A DNA stretch of 64,000 nt, taken from Pseudomonas fulva 12-X. Lineage in GTDB: Bacteria; Pseudomonadota; Gammaproteobacteria; Pseudomonadales; Pseudomonadaceae. Where the stretch lies: NCBI RefSeq assembly GCF_000213805.1, contig NC_015556.1, positions 4,355,001-4,419,000 on the forward strand, written 5' to 3'. Made by a program: the position numbers and the translations under genes. Positions 12,359-55,842 of this stretch are shown one piece after another (position 1 is the stretch's first letter; each line of letters starts with the position of its first letter). Below the pieces are notes generated by a model, which was given only the letters and a program-made list of their open reading frames with translations, was not told where the DNA came from and ran no database searches.

Positions 12359-15145
12359 GTGCGTCGGCTCAGGATTGCCATCGGTTTACTCGTCAGCCTG
12401 CTCTTGGCCGGCTTCTGCCTGTCGAGCGTAGCCGCGCAGCGAGTGGCCACGCCGTACGCTACCGGCTGGTCGGCGTTCGTCGATGACAGCGCCCAGCTGG
12501 ATCTGGATGACGTACGCAGCCGCCGCAACCAGTTCCTGCCTCTCGACGACCTCGCTTTCACCTTCCCGCCCAGCGACCGAGCCGTGTGGCTGCGCTTCGA
12601 CGTGCCCGAACACCAGGCGCCCTACTGGCTGTGGCTGTTCGCGCCACGGGTGCAGTACCTCGACTACTACCTGCTGCGCGGCGAGCTGATCGAGCAGACC
12701 GTGCACAGCGGTGAGTCGATGCCGATGAGCTCGCGCCCGCTGCCCTCGCGCGCCTACCTGATGTCGTTGCCCAACGACGGCCAGGCTCGTGAAGTCTATG
12801 TCCGCATGACCTCCAACCACCCGCTGATGGCCTGGTTCAAGGTCATCGACGAGGCCGAGCTGGTCAGCCTCGAGCGCCCGGCCTACCTGTTCGGCGCGCT
12901 GCTCGGCGCCCTGCTGCTGGTGGTGATCTACAACCTGATTCGCTTCGCCTACATGCGCTCGGTGTGCAGCCTGTGGCTCGCCGCCCTGCATACCGGCCTG
13001 GCGGTGTGCGCCGCTGCCAACCTGGGCCTGCTGGCGGCCTGGGTGCCGCAGCTGGGCTACAACCAGTCGCTGATCGCCGACAGCAGCGCCCTGCTCGCCG
13101 CGTTCAGCCTGTCGGCCTTCGTGCTCGGTTTCTTCCGCCAGACGCCGATGCGCGACAGCAAGCTGAACCGTGTGCTGCAGGGCCACGCCCTGCTGGCGCT
13201 GCTGCTGGGCCTGACCATCGTCACCACCGGGCTACTCTGGTACAGCGCCGTGGTCTACCTGATGGTGTTTCTCGGCACCCTCGCGGTGCTGGTGGTCAGT
13301 GGCGTGCACTGGCACAACGGTTACCAGTCGGCGCGGCTGCTGGTGGTGGCCATGGTGGTGTTCAACGTCGGCTTCGGGCTGTTCATCCCCATCCTGTTCG
13401 GCTTCGACCAGCTCGACCCGGGCTGGTTGGTGATCGGCGTATTCACCATCGCCACCCTTAGCGGCGTGGTGCTCAGCGCTGCCCTGGCCGAGCACCAGCG
13501 CCACATCCAGCGCGCGGCCTCGCGGGCGCGCACTGCCCTGGCCGCCAACGACGCCGAGCTGCGTGCCAAGGCCGAGTTCCTGGCCAAGATCAGCCACGAG
13601 ATCCGTACGCCCATGAACGGCGTGCTGGGCATGACCGAGCTGCTGCTCGGCACACCACTGTCGGCCAAGCAGCGCGACTACGTGCAGACCATCCACAGCT
13701 CGGGCAACGAGCTACTCAACCTGATCAACGAGATTCTCGACATATCCAAGCTGGAATCCGGGCAGATCGAGTTGGATGACGTGCAGTTCGATCTCAACGC
13801 CCTGACCGAGGACTGCCTGGACATCTTCCGCGCCAAGGCCGAGCTGCAGAAGATTGAGCTGATCAGCTTCATCCAGCCCCAGGTGCCGCGCATCGTCAGC
13901 GGCGACCCGACGCGCCTGCGGCAGATCCTGCTCAGCCTGCTCGACAACGCCTTCAAGCAGACCAGCGAAGGCGAGATCCTGCTGGTGGTGGCGCTGGATA
14001 CCAGCGGTGATCAGCCGCGCCTGCGCTTTGCCGTACAGGACAGCGGCCACCCGCTGGATGCCGCCGAGCGCGACGCACTACTCAACACCGAACTGCAGAG
14101 CCGCGACTTCCTGTCGGCCACTCGCCTGGGCAGCCGCCTGGGGCTGATCATCGCCCGCCAGCTGATCCTGCTGATGGGCGGCGAATTCGGCATCCAGAGC
14201 GGCGGCAACCAGGGCTCCACCCTGTGGCTGACCCTGCCGCTGGACGACGCCCGCCTGCAGCAGCCGAGCACCGATATCGATGGCACCCTGCAGGGCACTC
14301 GCCTATTGGTAGTGGACGACAACGACACCTGTCGCAAGGTGCTGCTGCAGCAGTGCAACGCCTGGGGCATGAACGTCAGCAGCGTGCCGTCCGGCAAGGA
14401 GGCGCTGGCGCTGCTGCGCACCCGGGCGCACATGCGCGAATACTTCGACGTGGTGCTGCTCGACCAGGACATGCCGGGCATGAGCGGCATGCAACTGGCG
14501 GCGAAGATCAAGGAAGACCCGAGCCTCAACAACGATATCCTGATCATCATGCTCACCGGCATCAGCCACGCGCCGAGCAAGATCATCGCCCGTAACGCCG
14601 GCATCAAGCGCATCCTCGCCAAGCCGGTGGCCGGCTACACCCTCAAGGCTACCCTGGCCGACGAACTCGCCCAGCGCCAGCACGGTACGGACACGCCGGC
14701 CATCACCAGCCCGGCGACCCTGGAGGTGCCGCGCGATTTCCGCATTCTGGTCGCCGAAGACAACAGCATCTCCACCAAGGTGATCCGCGGCATGCTCGGC
14801 AAGCTCAACCTGCAACCCGACACCGCGAGCAACGGCGAGGAAGCCCTCAATGCCATGAAGGCCCAGCGCTACGATCTCGTGCTGATGGACTGCGAAATGC
14901 CGGTGATGGACGGCTTTTCCGCCACCGAACAGCTGCGCGCCTGGGAAATCGCCGAGCGTCGACCTCGCACGCCGGTGGTCGCGCTGACCGCGCACATCTT
15001 GAGCGAGCACAAGGAGCGCGCGCGCCAAGCCGGCATGGACGGCCACATGGCCAAGCCCGTGGAGCTCTCGCAGCTGCGCGAACTGATCGAGTACTGGGTC
15101 GCCGAGCGCCATCCCCAGGCCGAGGACGACACCGTCACCTCCTGA
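12359..15145 (+). CDS. retS: Hybrid sensor kinase RetS
   Basis: Inner-membrane hybrid histidine kinase that in P. aeruginosa blocks GacS and so lowers RsmY/Z RNA, favouring acute over biofilm behaviour. The 928 residues comprise a signal anchor (1-24), a periplasmic 7TMR-DISMED2 domain (about 30-165) and seven membrane helices (about 175-390). A HisKA with SHEIRTPMNG (His413), an ATPase domain, and two receiver domains with Asp702 (LLDQDMPG) and Asp844 (MDCEMPVMDG) follow. The ATPase G1 box reads DSGHP rather than DxGxG, so kinase activity may be weak. GTG start after AAAGGG. Position after purD matches PA4854-PA4856. Confidence 0.93.
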   Translation: MRRLRIAIGLLVSLLLAGFCLSSVAAQRVATPYATGWSAFVDDSAQLDLDDVRSRRNQFLPLDDLAFTFPPSDRAVWLRFDVPEHQAPYWLWLFAPRVQYLDYYLLRGELIEQTVHSGESMPMSSRPLPSRAYLMSLPNDGQAREVYVRMTSNHPLMAWFKVIDEAELVSLERPAYLFGALLGALLLVVIYNLIRFAYMRSVCSLWLAALHTGLAVCAAANLGLLAAWVPQLGYNQSLIADSSALLAAFSLSAFVLGFFRQTPMRDSKLNRVLQGHALLALLLGLTIVTTGLLWYSAVVYLMVFLGTLAVLVVSGVHWHNGYQSARLLVVAMVVFNVGFGLFIPILFGFDQLDPGWLVIGVFTIATLSGVVLSAALAEHQRHIQRAASRARTALAANDAELRAKAEFLAKISHEIRTPMNGVLGMTELLLGTPLSAKQRDYVQTIHSSGNELLNLINEILDISKLESGQIELDDVQFDLNALTEDCLDIFRAKAELQKIELISFIQPQVPRIVSGDPTRLRQILLSLLDNAFKQTSEGEILLVVALDTSGDQPRLRFAVQDSGHPLDAAERDALLNTELQSRDFLSATRLGSRLGLIIARQLILLMGGEFGIQSGGNQGSTLWLTLPLDDARLQQPSTDIDGTLQGTRLLVVDDNDTCRKVLLQQCNAWGMNVSSVPSGKEALALLRTRAHMREYFDVVLLDQDMPGMSGMQLAAKIKEDPSLNNDILIIMLTGISHAPSKIIARNAGIKRILAKPVAGYTLKATLADELAQRQHGTDTPAITSPATLEVPRDFRILVAEDNSISTKVIRGMLGKLNLQPDTASNGEEALNAMKAQRYDLVLMDCEMPVMDGFSATEQLRAWEIAERRPRTPVVALTAHILSEHKERARQAGMDGHMAKPVELSQLRELIEYWVAERHPQAEDDTVTS

Positions 15146-38231: not shown

Positions 38232-38711
38232 ATGAGCAACACTTCCAGCCAGATGGACACCTCGCCGCTGCCTCAGAACGGAGGCGATGCATTGCCTGAC
38301 AACTGGCTGGATACCCTGGTCGGCTACGCGCTGCGCCGCGCCCAGATGAAGGTCTTCCAGCACCTGGTCGGCAACCTGGCCGAGCACGACCTGCGCCCGG
38401 CGCAGTTCACCGCCATGGTGATCATCGACAACGAGCCAGGCCTGATGCAGGCCGACCTGGCGCGCCAACTGGCCATCGAGCCGCCGCAACTGGTGCCACT
38501 GCTCAACAAACTGGAAAGCCGTGGCCTGGCCCAGCGCGTGCGCGGCGTGCAGGACAAGCGCGCCTATGGGGTGTTTCTCACCAAAGCCGGCATCGCCCTG
38601 CTCGGCAAACTCAAGGCCATTGCCGTAGCCAGCGATGAAGCGGCCACCGCTGCCCTGGACGAGGATGAGCGTGCGCAGCTGCTGCGGTTGCTGCATAAGG
38701 TCAACGGTTAA
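38232..38711 (+). CDS. MarR-family regulator, probable FerR-type control of ferulate genes
   Basis: Winged-helix regulator of 159 residues: RPAQFTAMVIIDNEPGLMQADLARQLAIEPPQLVPLLNKLESRGLAQRV is the DNA-binding core, ending with the D-K-R-A wing turn. In other pseudomonads a MarR protein (FerR) next to ech-vdh-fcs senses feruloyl-CoA. Here the gene stands at the downstream end of that cluster, on the opposite strand, so the assignment to ferulate is an inference from position. Confidence 0.85.
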   Translation: MSNTSSQMDTSPLPQNGGDALPDNWLDTLVGYALRRAQMKVFQHLVGNLAEHDLRPAQFTAMVIIDNEPGLMQADLARQLAIEPPQLVPLLNKLESRGLAQRVRGVQDKRAYGVFLTKAGIALLGKLKAIAVASDEAATAALDEDERAQLLRLLHKVNG

Positions 38712-45611: not shown

Positions 45612-46442
45612 TCAGCGCTTGTAGGCCTGCAGACCGGGCTTGATCGACTTGTCGTCGAGGAACTGCTTCATGCCCTGCTCGCGACCACCCTCTTCGTCCA
45701 GCAGGCGCGACTGGTCGAGCTTGGCGTAGAGATAATCCTCGTTCTGCTCCCAGGTCAGCTCGCGGCAACGCTTGAAGCCATGCTTGGCGGCACGCAGCAC
45801 CACCGGGTTCTTTTCCAGCAGGTTGCGCGCCAGCTCCAGGGTGGTGTCGCGCAACTGTGCCAGCGGCACGCTTTCGTTGACCAGGCCCATCTCGGCGGCT
45901 TTCTTACCGTCGAAGGTCTTGCCGGTCATGATGTAGTACAGCGACTGGCGGTGGCCCACGGTGTCGGCCATGGCCTTGCTGACCAGGTTGCCCGGCGGAA
46001 TGCCCCAGTTGATTTCGGAAAGGCCGAAGGTGGCTTCATCGGCGCAGATCGCCAGGTCGCAGGCAACCAGCGGGCTGAAGCCGCCACCGAAGCACCAGCC
46101 GTTGACCATGGCGATGGTCGGCTTGGCGTACATGCGCAGCAGTTTCCACTGCCACTGGGAGGCTTCGCGGCGAATCTTCTCCTGGAGAATTTCCGGGCCG
46201 GCGTCCACTTCGCGGAAGTATTCCTTGAGGTCCATGCCCGCGGTCCAGGATTCGCCGGCGCCGGTCAGCACCAGTACGCGGGCCTCGGCGTCCTGCTCCA
46301 GCACCTCGAGGATCTCGACCATCTCGCGGTTGAGGGTCGGGCTCATGGCGTTGCGTTTTTCCGGGCGGTTGAGGGTGACCCAGGCGATGCCTTCTTCGAC
46401 ATCGACCTTGACGGTTTGCCAGCGGCCTTCGTACTTGCTCAT
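45612..46442 (-). CDS. ech: Feruloyl-CoA hydratase/lyase (HCHL)
   Basis: Crotonase-fold enzyme of 276 residues that hydrates feruloyl-CoA and cleaves it to vanillin and acetyl-CoA. Residues described for the P. fluorescens enzyme are at the same numbers: Met70, Ser123, Glu143 (LSEINWGIPPG) and Tyr239, and the length is identical. It is the first gene of the minus-strand ech-vdh-fcs-aat-acd series, behind an AT-rich promoter with an inverted repeat. Confidence 0.96.
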   Translation of the reverse strand: MSKYEGRWQTVKVDVEEGIAWVTLNRPEKRNAMSPTLNREMVEILEVLEQDAEARVLVLTGAGESWTAGMDLKEYFREVDAGPEILQEKIRREASQWQWKLLRMYAKPTIAMVNGWCFGGGFSPLVACDLAICADEATFGLSEINWGIPPGNLVSKAMADTVGHRQSLYYIMTGKTFDGKKAAEMGLVNESVPLAQLRDTTLELARNLLEKNPVVLRAAKHGFKRCRELTWEQNEDYLYAKLDQSRLLDEEGGREQGMKQFLDDKSIKPGLQAYKR

Positions 46443-46491
46443 GGGGAATGCTCTTGTTTTGTTGTCGATGAACAGAAGCTAATCCTGAAAA

Positions 46492-46512
46492 ATAGTTATG
46501 TCAATTAACTAT
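46492..46512. promoter_or_regulatory. Inverted repeat upstream of ech (candidate regulator site)
   Basis: ATAGTTA and TAACTAT are perfect inverted arms seven bases apart, 50 bases before the ech ATG in a strongly AT-rich patch. The ten bases ATTAACTATT (46504-46513) also occur in the vanA promoter region (51907-51916). Candidate target of the MarR regulator. Confidence 0.55.
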
Positions 46513-46612
46513 TAATTAAAATCACCATCTATGCCGAATTCGGACATCTGCGCGACAAAGCCGCCCGTTCGCAGGCCCGAAGAACCTCGAACAGGTCACG
46601 TTGGCGCTTCGC

Positions 46613-46680
46613 TATAGCCAAAGGCTTACACGACGGCGCGCCGGTTCGCTCTGGTGACACCCCGGCCCGCGCCGTAATCT
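46613..46680 (+). promoter_or_regulatory. Promoter and partial GacA-box of the small RNA
   Basis: TAATCT at 46675-46680 is a fair -10, giving a start near 46687. GGCTTACA at 46623-46630 matches the right half of the GacA box (TGTAAG-N6-CTTACA) and lies near -60. The left half (TATAGC) matches only partly. Confidence 0.5.
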
Positions 46681-46686
46681 ATGTCC

Positions 46687-46798
46687 ATACCTGCAGCACA
46701 GGACGTGCTCAGGGTCATGGATGACGTGACCATAGCTAGGATGGCAGCCGACAGGACGTTGGCATTGGTCAGTAAAAGCCCGCTTCGGCGGGTTTTTT
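46687..46798 (+). ncRNA. Probable Rsm-type (RsmX/Y/Z-like) small RNA sequestering RsmA/CsrA
   Basis: About 112 nt with no reading frame. Four consecutive hairpins present GGA in the loop. They are AGCAC-aggac-GTGCT (46695-46709), GTCA-tgga-TGAC (46714-46725), GCT-aggat-GGC (46735-46745) and GCCGAC-aggac-GTTGGC (46747-46763). An intrinsic terminator follows. GGA in a hairpin loop is the binding motif of RsmA/CsrA, and titrating RNAs of this design (RsmX, RsmY, RsmZ) are made under GacA control in pseudomonads. Family assignment within X/Y/Z is not possible by eye. Confidence 0.8.
46776..46798. terminator. Terminator of the small RNA, usable on both strands
   Basis: AAGCCCGC-TTC-GGCGGGTT stem followed by T6 on the plus strand. 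On the minus strand the stem is followed by TTTT, so it can also end transcripts from the DUF3237 gene side. Confidence 0.9.
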
Positions 46799-46857: not shown

Positions 46858-47397
46858 TCATTTCACGATGAAACCGTCGTAAATCACCGTCTTCTGCAGG
46901 CGCATCGCACTGCCGACTCCGACCATGCCGTTGAGCCAGCTGTAGCGCGGGTCGCTGGTCTCGAATTGCATGGTGATGCGGAAGTAATACTGCGACGGGT
47001 CCACCGGCTCGCCCTTGGCCACCTTGCGCAGTACCTCGGCCGGGCCGTGGCGAAAGCCCTTGGTCTGCAGATAGACCAGAGCGCCGTCATCGGTCTGCAA
47101 CAGATAGCGGGTGTCGATGATCGCCAGACCATTGCTGTCGACCAACTGCCAGTCGGCGCCGTTGTTGAGAATCTTGCCCTTGAAACCGGGGCCGTCGAAG
47201 TGCCCGCTGGTGATCGGAATGATCCGCCGCTGGCCTTGCGGGCCAACGGCGCCGAGCTCCCAGACCGGCGCTTCGAGGTTGACGGTGAAGCGCGCCAGGG
47301 GTTCAAGCTTGAGCGGCGGAGGCGTGTTCACATCGGCATTGGCCAGGCTGCTTGCCAGGCACAGCAACAGGGCCATCAGTTGCGTCAGTCTGCTCAT
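46858..47397 (-). CDS. DUF3237 protein with signal peptide
   Basis: Exported protein of 179 residues. The first 21 (MSRLTQLMALLLCLASSLANA) form a clear signal peptide. The rest resembles DUF3237, with FTVNLEAPVWELGAVGPQGQRRIIPITSGHFDGPGFKGKI and a final MVGVGSAMR. Its function is unknown; family members often sit in aromatic-compound clusters. It lies 12 bases after the MFS carrier gene on the same strand, so both are probably one transcript. Confidence 0.85.
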   Translation of the reverse strand: MSRLTQLMALLLCLASSLANADVNTPPPLKLEPLARFTVNLEAPVWELGAVGPQGQRRIIPITSGHFDGPGFKGKILNNGADWQLVDSNGLAIIDTRYLLQTDDGALVYLQTKGFRHGPAEVLRKVAKGEPVDPSQYYFRITMQFETSDPRYSWLNGMVGVGSAMRLQKTVIYDGFIVK

Positions 47398-51778: not shown

Positions 51779-51958
51779 GTTCAATCCATGCCAGTCGCGT
51801 CGCGGCTCTGGATCCGATCCGCGATCTCGTCGAGCCCGCACCGCTCAAGGCCTTACATAATCGGGAGGCAGTGAAGAATGCGTTCGCTGATCGGACAGTT
51901 TGTTTTATTAACTATTTTTCCGAACCGCCCTTGACAGTAGGCTGATTAAAAACCAACC

Positions 51959-55416: not shown

Positions 55417-55803
55417 TCATACTGCCCGCTCGTTTCGCAGTATCCAGCCGGCCAGACCGGCAGACACCACTTCGAACAGGATCGTCCAGAGGTTGAAGGT
55501 CTGCTGCGCGCCGCCATCGAGCCACAGGCCGGCAATGCGCCCGAGCGCCAGGCTGGCATAGAGCACCAGCAACAGGACCAGAACCGGGCGGGTCAGCTCG
55601 GGCCGCCACAGGGCCAGAGCGAGAAACACCGCCAGGCCGACCGGCAGGGCGCCGTACTGGGCGCGCACGTCGGTGACCGCGGACGACTCCATCAGCAGCA
55701 TACCGCTGACCGCACCCATTTCCTGGGGCCACAGAAAGTAGGCGCCGCCGAAGCCGGCGAGCAGCAACAATTGCACAACGAGAAATAGACGAGCAACGGG
55801 CAT
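55417..55803 (-). CDS. DUF4345-like small membrane protein
   Basis: Membrane protein of 128 residues with four hydrophobic segments. It resembles the DUF4345 family in layout (MPVARLFLVVQLLLLAGFGG, then YGALPVGLAVFLALAL). Function unknown. GGAGG eight bases before the ATG supports this start over one 13 codons earlier. It lies just after the pobR gene on the same strand. Confidence 0.75.
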   Translation of the reverse strand: MPVARLFLVVQLLLLAGFGGAYFLWPQEMGAVSGMLLMESSAVTDVRAQYGALPVGLAVFLALALWRPELTRPVLVLLLVLYASLALGRIAGLWLDGGAQQTFNLWTILFEVVSAGLAGWILRNERAV

Positions 55804-55842
55804 GGCTTGGTCCTCCGGGCACCTGGGCGCAGCATAGGCCAC

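Follow-up and report, generated by a model that had tools for sequence, protein, structure and literature searches.

Which small RNA is encoded beside the ferulate gene ech of Pseudomonas fulva 12-X, and does this address bear on its function? The window analysed here is a stretch of 64 kb from the genome of this strain (4.92 Mb, one contig). A first reading from the letters of the window (the sequence-only reading) placed an Rsm-type regulatory RNA between ech and a gene for a DUF3237 protein, and noted that no Rsm RNA was known beside a hydroxycinnamate operon. Among the papers found by literature searches, none likewise deals with an Rsm RNA beside hydroxycinnamate genes, judged by titles and the beginnings of abstracts. 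The papers listed for rsmX synteny, for rsmX in Straminea species and for the rsm genes of Phytopseudomonas added nothing on the locus.

According to the covariance-model search, positions 46686–46798 of the plus strand match the Rfam family rsmX (RF02144) with 80.6 bits (gathering score 56, E = 2.9e-13), and the match covers the whole model (1–114 of 114). This is the sole Rfam family at gathering score in the whole 64-kb window. The RsmY model (RF00195) gives 40.9 bits at the same place, below its cut-off of 57, and the PrrB_RsmZ model (RF00166) gives no match there; the only match of the latter in the genome is at 1447883–1448016. The covariance-model scores thus rule out RsmY or RsmZ as the identity of the locus. 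By its sequence, the locus is an Rsm-type RNA, specifically rsmX. The sequence-only reading was right in assigning the locus to the Rsm family, and of the rsmX, RsmY and PrrB/RsmZ models that it had named for a search, only rsmX exceeded its cut-off at this place. The rsmX covariance model is reportedly the work of Moll et al. in 2010, which PMC7366521 cites.

The locus shares with the RsmX family the full-length match, the rsmX-type GacA box, four looped GGA motifs, an outer stem and the terminator, and differs in its number of GGA (four) and in its aromatic catabolism neighbours. With RsmY and RsmZ it shares several GGA motifs, an intrinsic terminator, a GacA-type box in front and presumably the same role, whereas it falls under the RsmY cut-off and is unmatched by the RsmZ model.

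The MFE fold of the RNA has an energy of −47.7 kcal/mol. The mean of 200 dinucleotide shuffles is −33.35 kcal/mol (z = −4.22), and none of the 200 is as low. The RNA contains exactly four GGA motifs, at 46701, 46719, 46739 and 46754, and all of them are unpaired at hairpin-loop positions in the predicted fold. The four hairpins with looped GGA and the intrinsic terminator, noted already in the sequence-only reading, were confirmed by this fold (Table 1). The terminator stem also suits the convergent DUF3237 gene on the minus strand. A simple promoter and terminator scanner lists the terminator on the minus strand only, perhaps because the U-tract of the plus strand pairs into the stem.

Table 1. 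Positions of the rsmX RNA, its structural elements and the genes and sites discussed with it, in the numbering of the window
Feature	Position	Strand	Basis or remark
GacA upstream activating sequence, rsmX type, TATAGCCAAAGGCTTACA	46613..46630	+	match with 0 mismatches; 0 expected in 64 kb
−10 element TAATCT	46675..46680	+	read directly; ends five bases ahead of the rsmX match
rsmX small RNA	46687..46798	+	about 112 nt, start inferred; RF02144 match, fold, four hairpin-loop GGA
H1	46690–46713	+	loop AGGAC (MFE)
H2	46714–46725	+	loop TGGA (MFE)
Outer 6-bp stem around H3 and H4	46727–46732 with 46766–46771	+	MFE; absent from the sequence-only reading
H3	46735–46745	+	looped GGA inside CTAGGATG (MFE)
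H4	46747–46763	+	loop AGGAC (MFE)
Rho-independent terminator of rsmX	46774..46797	+	MFE fold and Rfam alignment
ech, p-hydroxycinnamoyl-CoA hydratase/lyase	45612..46442	−	divergent neighbour; NF006588, 508.2 bits, cut-off 276
Perfect inverted repeat AATAGTTATGTCAATTAACTATT	46491..46513	none	before ech, outside rsmX
DUF3237 protein gene	46858..47397	−	convergent neighbour; PF11578, E = 2e-50
RetS	12359–15145		7TMR-DISMED2, 7TMR-DISM, HisKA, HATPase, two receiver stretches

The structure was compared with an alignment of 33 rsmX sequences (32 distinct). A GGA lies within three columns of loops 1 to 4 in 32, 33, 32 and 32 of the 33 sequences, respectively, so that the GGA loops, whose conservation in related genomes had been proposed as a check, are kept in 32–33 of 33. 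In this alignment 83.4% of the cells pair, against 79.1% in shuffled alignments and at most 46.7% for slid structures, every one of which is exceeded. Thirteen pairs are changed on both sides. The structure beats all 500 shuffles, which ignore relatedness, on four of five measures, and the fifth is reached by 38 of the 500. The outer stem scores low, with just 46.6% of its cells paired, and the RNAalifold consensus omits both H1 and this stem. When each sequence is read singly, however, all 33 show an outer stem of at least five pairs. We therefore judge that the weak score reflects the register of the alignment.

Upstream of the RNA, the element TATAGCCAAAGGCTTACACG (46613–46632) is the only site at three or fewer mismatches in 64 kb, with 0 expected, for a pattern taken from the alignment of rsmX loci, the window's own site among them. 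When 37 rsmX loci are aligned together with the DNA upstream of them, close variants of the full element occupy the same position. CTTACA is present upstream in 33 of these loci and CCTACA in three; one locus (L015) has neither. The upstream activating sequence of rsmX in P. brassicacearum, as given in the available part of PMC7911923, is TATAGCGAAACGCTTACA, and 16 of its 18 bases equal those of TATAGCCAAAGGCTTACA. The sequence-only reading had recognized half of a GacA box. The box stands, but it is not a half: the full rsmX-type box is present, and the region delimited in that reading begins at 46613, the first base of the box. At the sequence level, rsmX is thus preceded by a predicted GacA site. 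The −10 element TAATCT had been placed correctly, and it is present in 28 of the 37 aligned loci. A consensus scanner found no sigma-70 promoter pair and no −35 element at rsmX; this blank fits an activator-dependent promoter, and does not show one.

A loose box pattern, TRTRRSN6CTTACA, has five matches at four places in the whole genome (4.92 Mb), and the same pattern read backwards has six. Since the total does not exceed the control, the number of matches is uninformative, and the places are telling. Three of them lie before rsmX (4401613), rsmY (4144309) and rsmZ (1447693, matched on both strands). The fourth box-like site, TGTGGCTACCCACTTACA (L076, C1:3892490–3892507), stands before no Rsm RNA found in the genome and is probably due to chance.

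The genome contains one rsmX (150 of 1102 first-look candidates scored), one RsmY (100.6 bits; 150 of 353 scored) and one RsmZ (111.2 bits; 150 of 178 scored) over the respective cut-offs. A second, weak rsmX match of 36.2 bits at 3618817–3618932 has no GGA; it resembles a chance match to a terminator and was rejected as a second rsmX. Three proteins of the CsrA family are encoded, namely one RsmA, which matches the solved structure 1vpz with E = 1.1e-33, and two RsmN/RsmF-like proteins. The latter pair is located at C1:2290088 (L066) and C1:1583446 (L067); L066, the one compared with structures, matches 4kji with E = 3.4e-6. One response regulator scores above the cut-off of NF007018 (316.1 bits, cut-off 280), a family which we take to be of the GacA/UvrY type. 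RetS is indeed in the window, as the sequence-only reading had said: its best relatives among solved structures are named RetS (6dk8, E = 1.1e-119). The gene is, however, about 31 kb from rsmX.

The best explanation, in which we have high confidence, is that the locus carries the genome's single over-cut-off rsmX, which would be switched by GacA and titrate RsmA, and that its ech neighbourhood is most probably historical. Family membership, the promoter box, the predicted fold, the conservation of the loops and the partner genes (RsmA, RsmN/RsmF-like, GacA-family and RetS) were obtained directly.

The neighbourhood was examined in several samples. In a survey of the genus run with stricter filters, rsmX over the cut-off was found in 178 of 298 sampled genomes and a match at E ≤ 0.001 in 256 of 298; the highest score was 125.7 bits. 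A scan with the core sequence of the clade gave P. daroniae, P. straminea, strain G34, P. argentinensis, strain URMO17WK12:I2, P. punonensis and P. dryadis as named records, and ech adjoins rsmX in six of these seven records. It also adjoins rsmX in the window's genome and in five of 18 other genomes examined. As three of the core-sequence records are three of those genomes, there are nine distinct Straminea-type assemblies with ech beside rsmX, some of them assigned to the clade by inference from similarity. The plant-associated Phytopseudomonas corresponds to the Straminea clade of PMC10797017, and P. dryadis is its deepest branch according to the available part of that paper. Among the relatives compared, P. 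straminea alone shares with the window a DUF3237 gene beside rsmX; wherever another Straminea-type locus reaches that far, rsmX is directly followed by an MFS gene.

Across the genus, the neighbours of rsmX vary from group to group. When gene families in 1.5-kb flanks are compared between genomes, taking one rsmX copy per genome and a single representative for the Straminea species, 3 of 91 pairs have a family in common next to rsmX; the figure is 38 of 66 for rsmY and, for rsmZ, 78 of 78. Short contigs of draft genomes can hide neighbours in this count. The sample consists of 19 genomes hand-picked from the higher-ranking matches, the Straminea group included, with RsmY over the cut-off in 17 and RsmZ in 18; it omits, for no set reason, high-ranking genomes such as G114, G079, G220, G083, G108 and G233. 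The hint in the sequence-only reading that the hydroxycinnamate neighbour or RetS makes this rsmX special is not borne out, as neighbours vary and RetS is distant.

A functional link between rsmX and ech would mean that GacA acting at the shared region, or the RNA being made next to the operon, tunes hydroxycinnamate uptake and breakdown, and that plant phenols are thereby tied to Gac/Rsm signalling in the clade. The genes are divergent, with 170 bp between the ech start (46442) and the GacA box (46613), and the arrangement is kept in the nine Straminea-type assemblies, the window included. The lone GGA of the 170-bp stretch on the ech strand sits in AGGA; a single AGGA in 170 bases, however, is often expected by chance. 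Rsm RNA acts in trans, and its neighbours thus need not be targets, which counts against a link. The repeat AATAGTTATGTCAATTAACTATT before ech is a likely candidate for the ech operator, judged from its sequence, and is exactly kept in six of eight distinct relatives tested (eight of 11 loci, some sharing an assembly). A MarR gene is present at 38232–38711 (Pfam), and its product may be the regulator of AATAGTTATGTCAATTAACTATT sites. This gene and the perfect repeat suggest separate control of ech. A similar site with three mismatches is located at 51894–51916, just ahead of a VanA-type gene (51960). Between the operator block and that of rsmX lies a poorly conserved stretch (46543–46602), in which 12 of 60 columns are invariant in the nine assemblies. 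Furthermore, ech genes of 88–95% identity occur away from rsmX: the pair of copies in G183 is over 700 kb away from the rsmX matches listed, and in G288 and G336 ech is on contigs other than that of rsmX. With this evidence against it, a functional link is quite unlikely. In our view, the hydroxycinnamate operon is locally controlled, and rsmX reaches its usual targets in trans.

The right flank suggests how rsmX came to lie beside ech. The P. dryadis genome (G356) and G164 have an rsmX of 95–96% identity without a true ech, and no ech match above 36% identity is among their matches listed. In P. dryadis a DUF4345 gene lies on one side of rsmX, and in G164 a GNAT gene (62%) and then a DUF4345 gene come directly after rsmX, followed by later window genes. 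In the window, the counterparts are 7.4 kb (GNAT) and 8.6 kb (DUF4345, about 55435–55806) from rsmX. Between rsmX and the DUF4345 gene the window has the genes for DUF3237, two MFS proteins, an OprD porin, a VanA-type oxygenase, a ferredoxin-reductase-like protein (vanB, judged by position), GNAT and GntR. Since DUF4345 and GNAT adjoin rsmX in those genomes and are distant in the window, the catabolic genes seem to have gathered round a resident rsmX. Most likely, as judged from gene order, rsmX stayed put and the Straminea clade acquired aromatic catabolic genes to either side of it. The reverse, that rsmX moved into the ech cluster, is less likely, because the neighbour known from P. dryadis is still found 8.6 kb from the window's rsmX. 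The left flank is no test, because the two kinds of left flank, the ech side and the T3SS-like side, differ altogether; the history therefore rests on the right flank. Of the window ORFs picked from the left of rsmX, RetS included, none has a match in the 46 kb to the left of rsmX in P. dryadis or G164; a single match, of 44%, is found on the opposite side of rsmX in G164.

In P. dryadis and G164, rsmX is near T3SS-like genes (FHIPEP family, L080; YscD-like, L079). The T3SS is often Rsm-controlled in pseudomonads.

Another reading would see in the locus an extra Rsm copy that has decayed or fallen silent, since 80.6 bits is under the score of many rsmX (best 125.7) and four GGA are fewer than the five to seven found in all but one of the 25 aligned rsmX from outside the clade (five in seven, six in 14 and seven in three sequences; the remaining one has three). 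The four-GGA form is, however, exactly common to all eight aligned clade members (the window and L037–L043), and the box, −10 element, hairpins and terminator are intact. The RNA is conserved far above its flanks, with 99 of 105 columns invariant over 46693–46797 in the nine assemblies, and it is the sole over-cut-off copy among the candidates scored in the genome. Decay is thus very improbable. A second rsmX copy in P. dryadis (L081:5884–5996) is divergent and contains only three GGA.

That the hairpins arose by chance in the 3′ end of an mRNA, with no small RNA gene, has a negligible probability: although the terminator stem serves the minus strand too, and the 36.2-bit match without GGA indicates that little more than a terminator can suffice to draw the rsmX model, the full-model RF02144 match, the low fold energy and the GacA box conserved in the 37-locus promoter alignment refute it in practice.

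The rsmX of the window can be compared with studied systems. The available part of PMC7911923 describes RsmX-1 and RsmX-2 of P. brassicacearum as a tandem pair with six GGA, and rsmX transcription there as exclusively GacA-dependent. The RNA of the window resembles them in its box (TATAGCCAAAGGCTTACA against TATAGCGAAACGCTTACA), in its length of about 110 nt and in the ANGGA or AGGA motifs displayed by its loops, and differs as a single over-cut-off copy with four GGA. For P. protegens, the available part of PMC13187841 reports in vitro binding of RsmX to both RsmA and RsmE; RsmX has a lesser role there, and on its own it did not restore an rsmXYZ triple mutant.

Transcription, GacA dependence and protein binding of the window's rsmX are expected from these relatives. 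By analogy, GacA, set by GacS and modulators such as RetS, would act via the box at 46613–46630. Transcription would then start at about 46687, and the RNA of about 112 nt would end at the terminator near 46797. The four hairpin loops would imitate GGA sites found in mRNA leaders; RsmA, and perhaps both RsmN/RsmF-like proteins as well, would bind to these loops. RsmX, RsmY and RsmZ together would free target mRNAs from the hold of the RsmA-type proteins, and the share of RsmX may be minor, as in P. protegens. History most likely accounts for the neighbourhood of ech, which would keep a probable operator of its own.

The locus is an ordinary, well-supported addition to the rsmX family, with an address that is unusual and, in all probability, accidental. 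A bolder proposal would be that the Straminea RsmX, stripped to four looped GGA, works with RsmA and two RsmN/RsmF-like proteins, that its stable seat among hydroxycinnamate and vanillate genes couples Gac/Rsm to the breakdown of plant phenols, and that the neighbourhood of rsmX is generally free while that of rsmZ is fixed; taken together, this is unlikely. The contrast between a fixed rsmZ and a variable rsmX neighbourhood may merit a proper survey. The finding fills in the Gac/Rsm parts list of the plant-associated Straminea clade. As an rsmX of 95–96% identity has DUF4345 and T3SS-like genes for neighbours in P. dryadis, and ech in the sister species, caution is needed: the neighbours of rsmX are a poor guide to its function, and the seat beside ech looks like a by-product of gene gain rather than a new control circuit.
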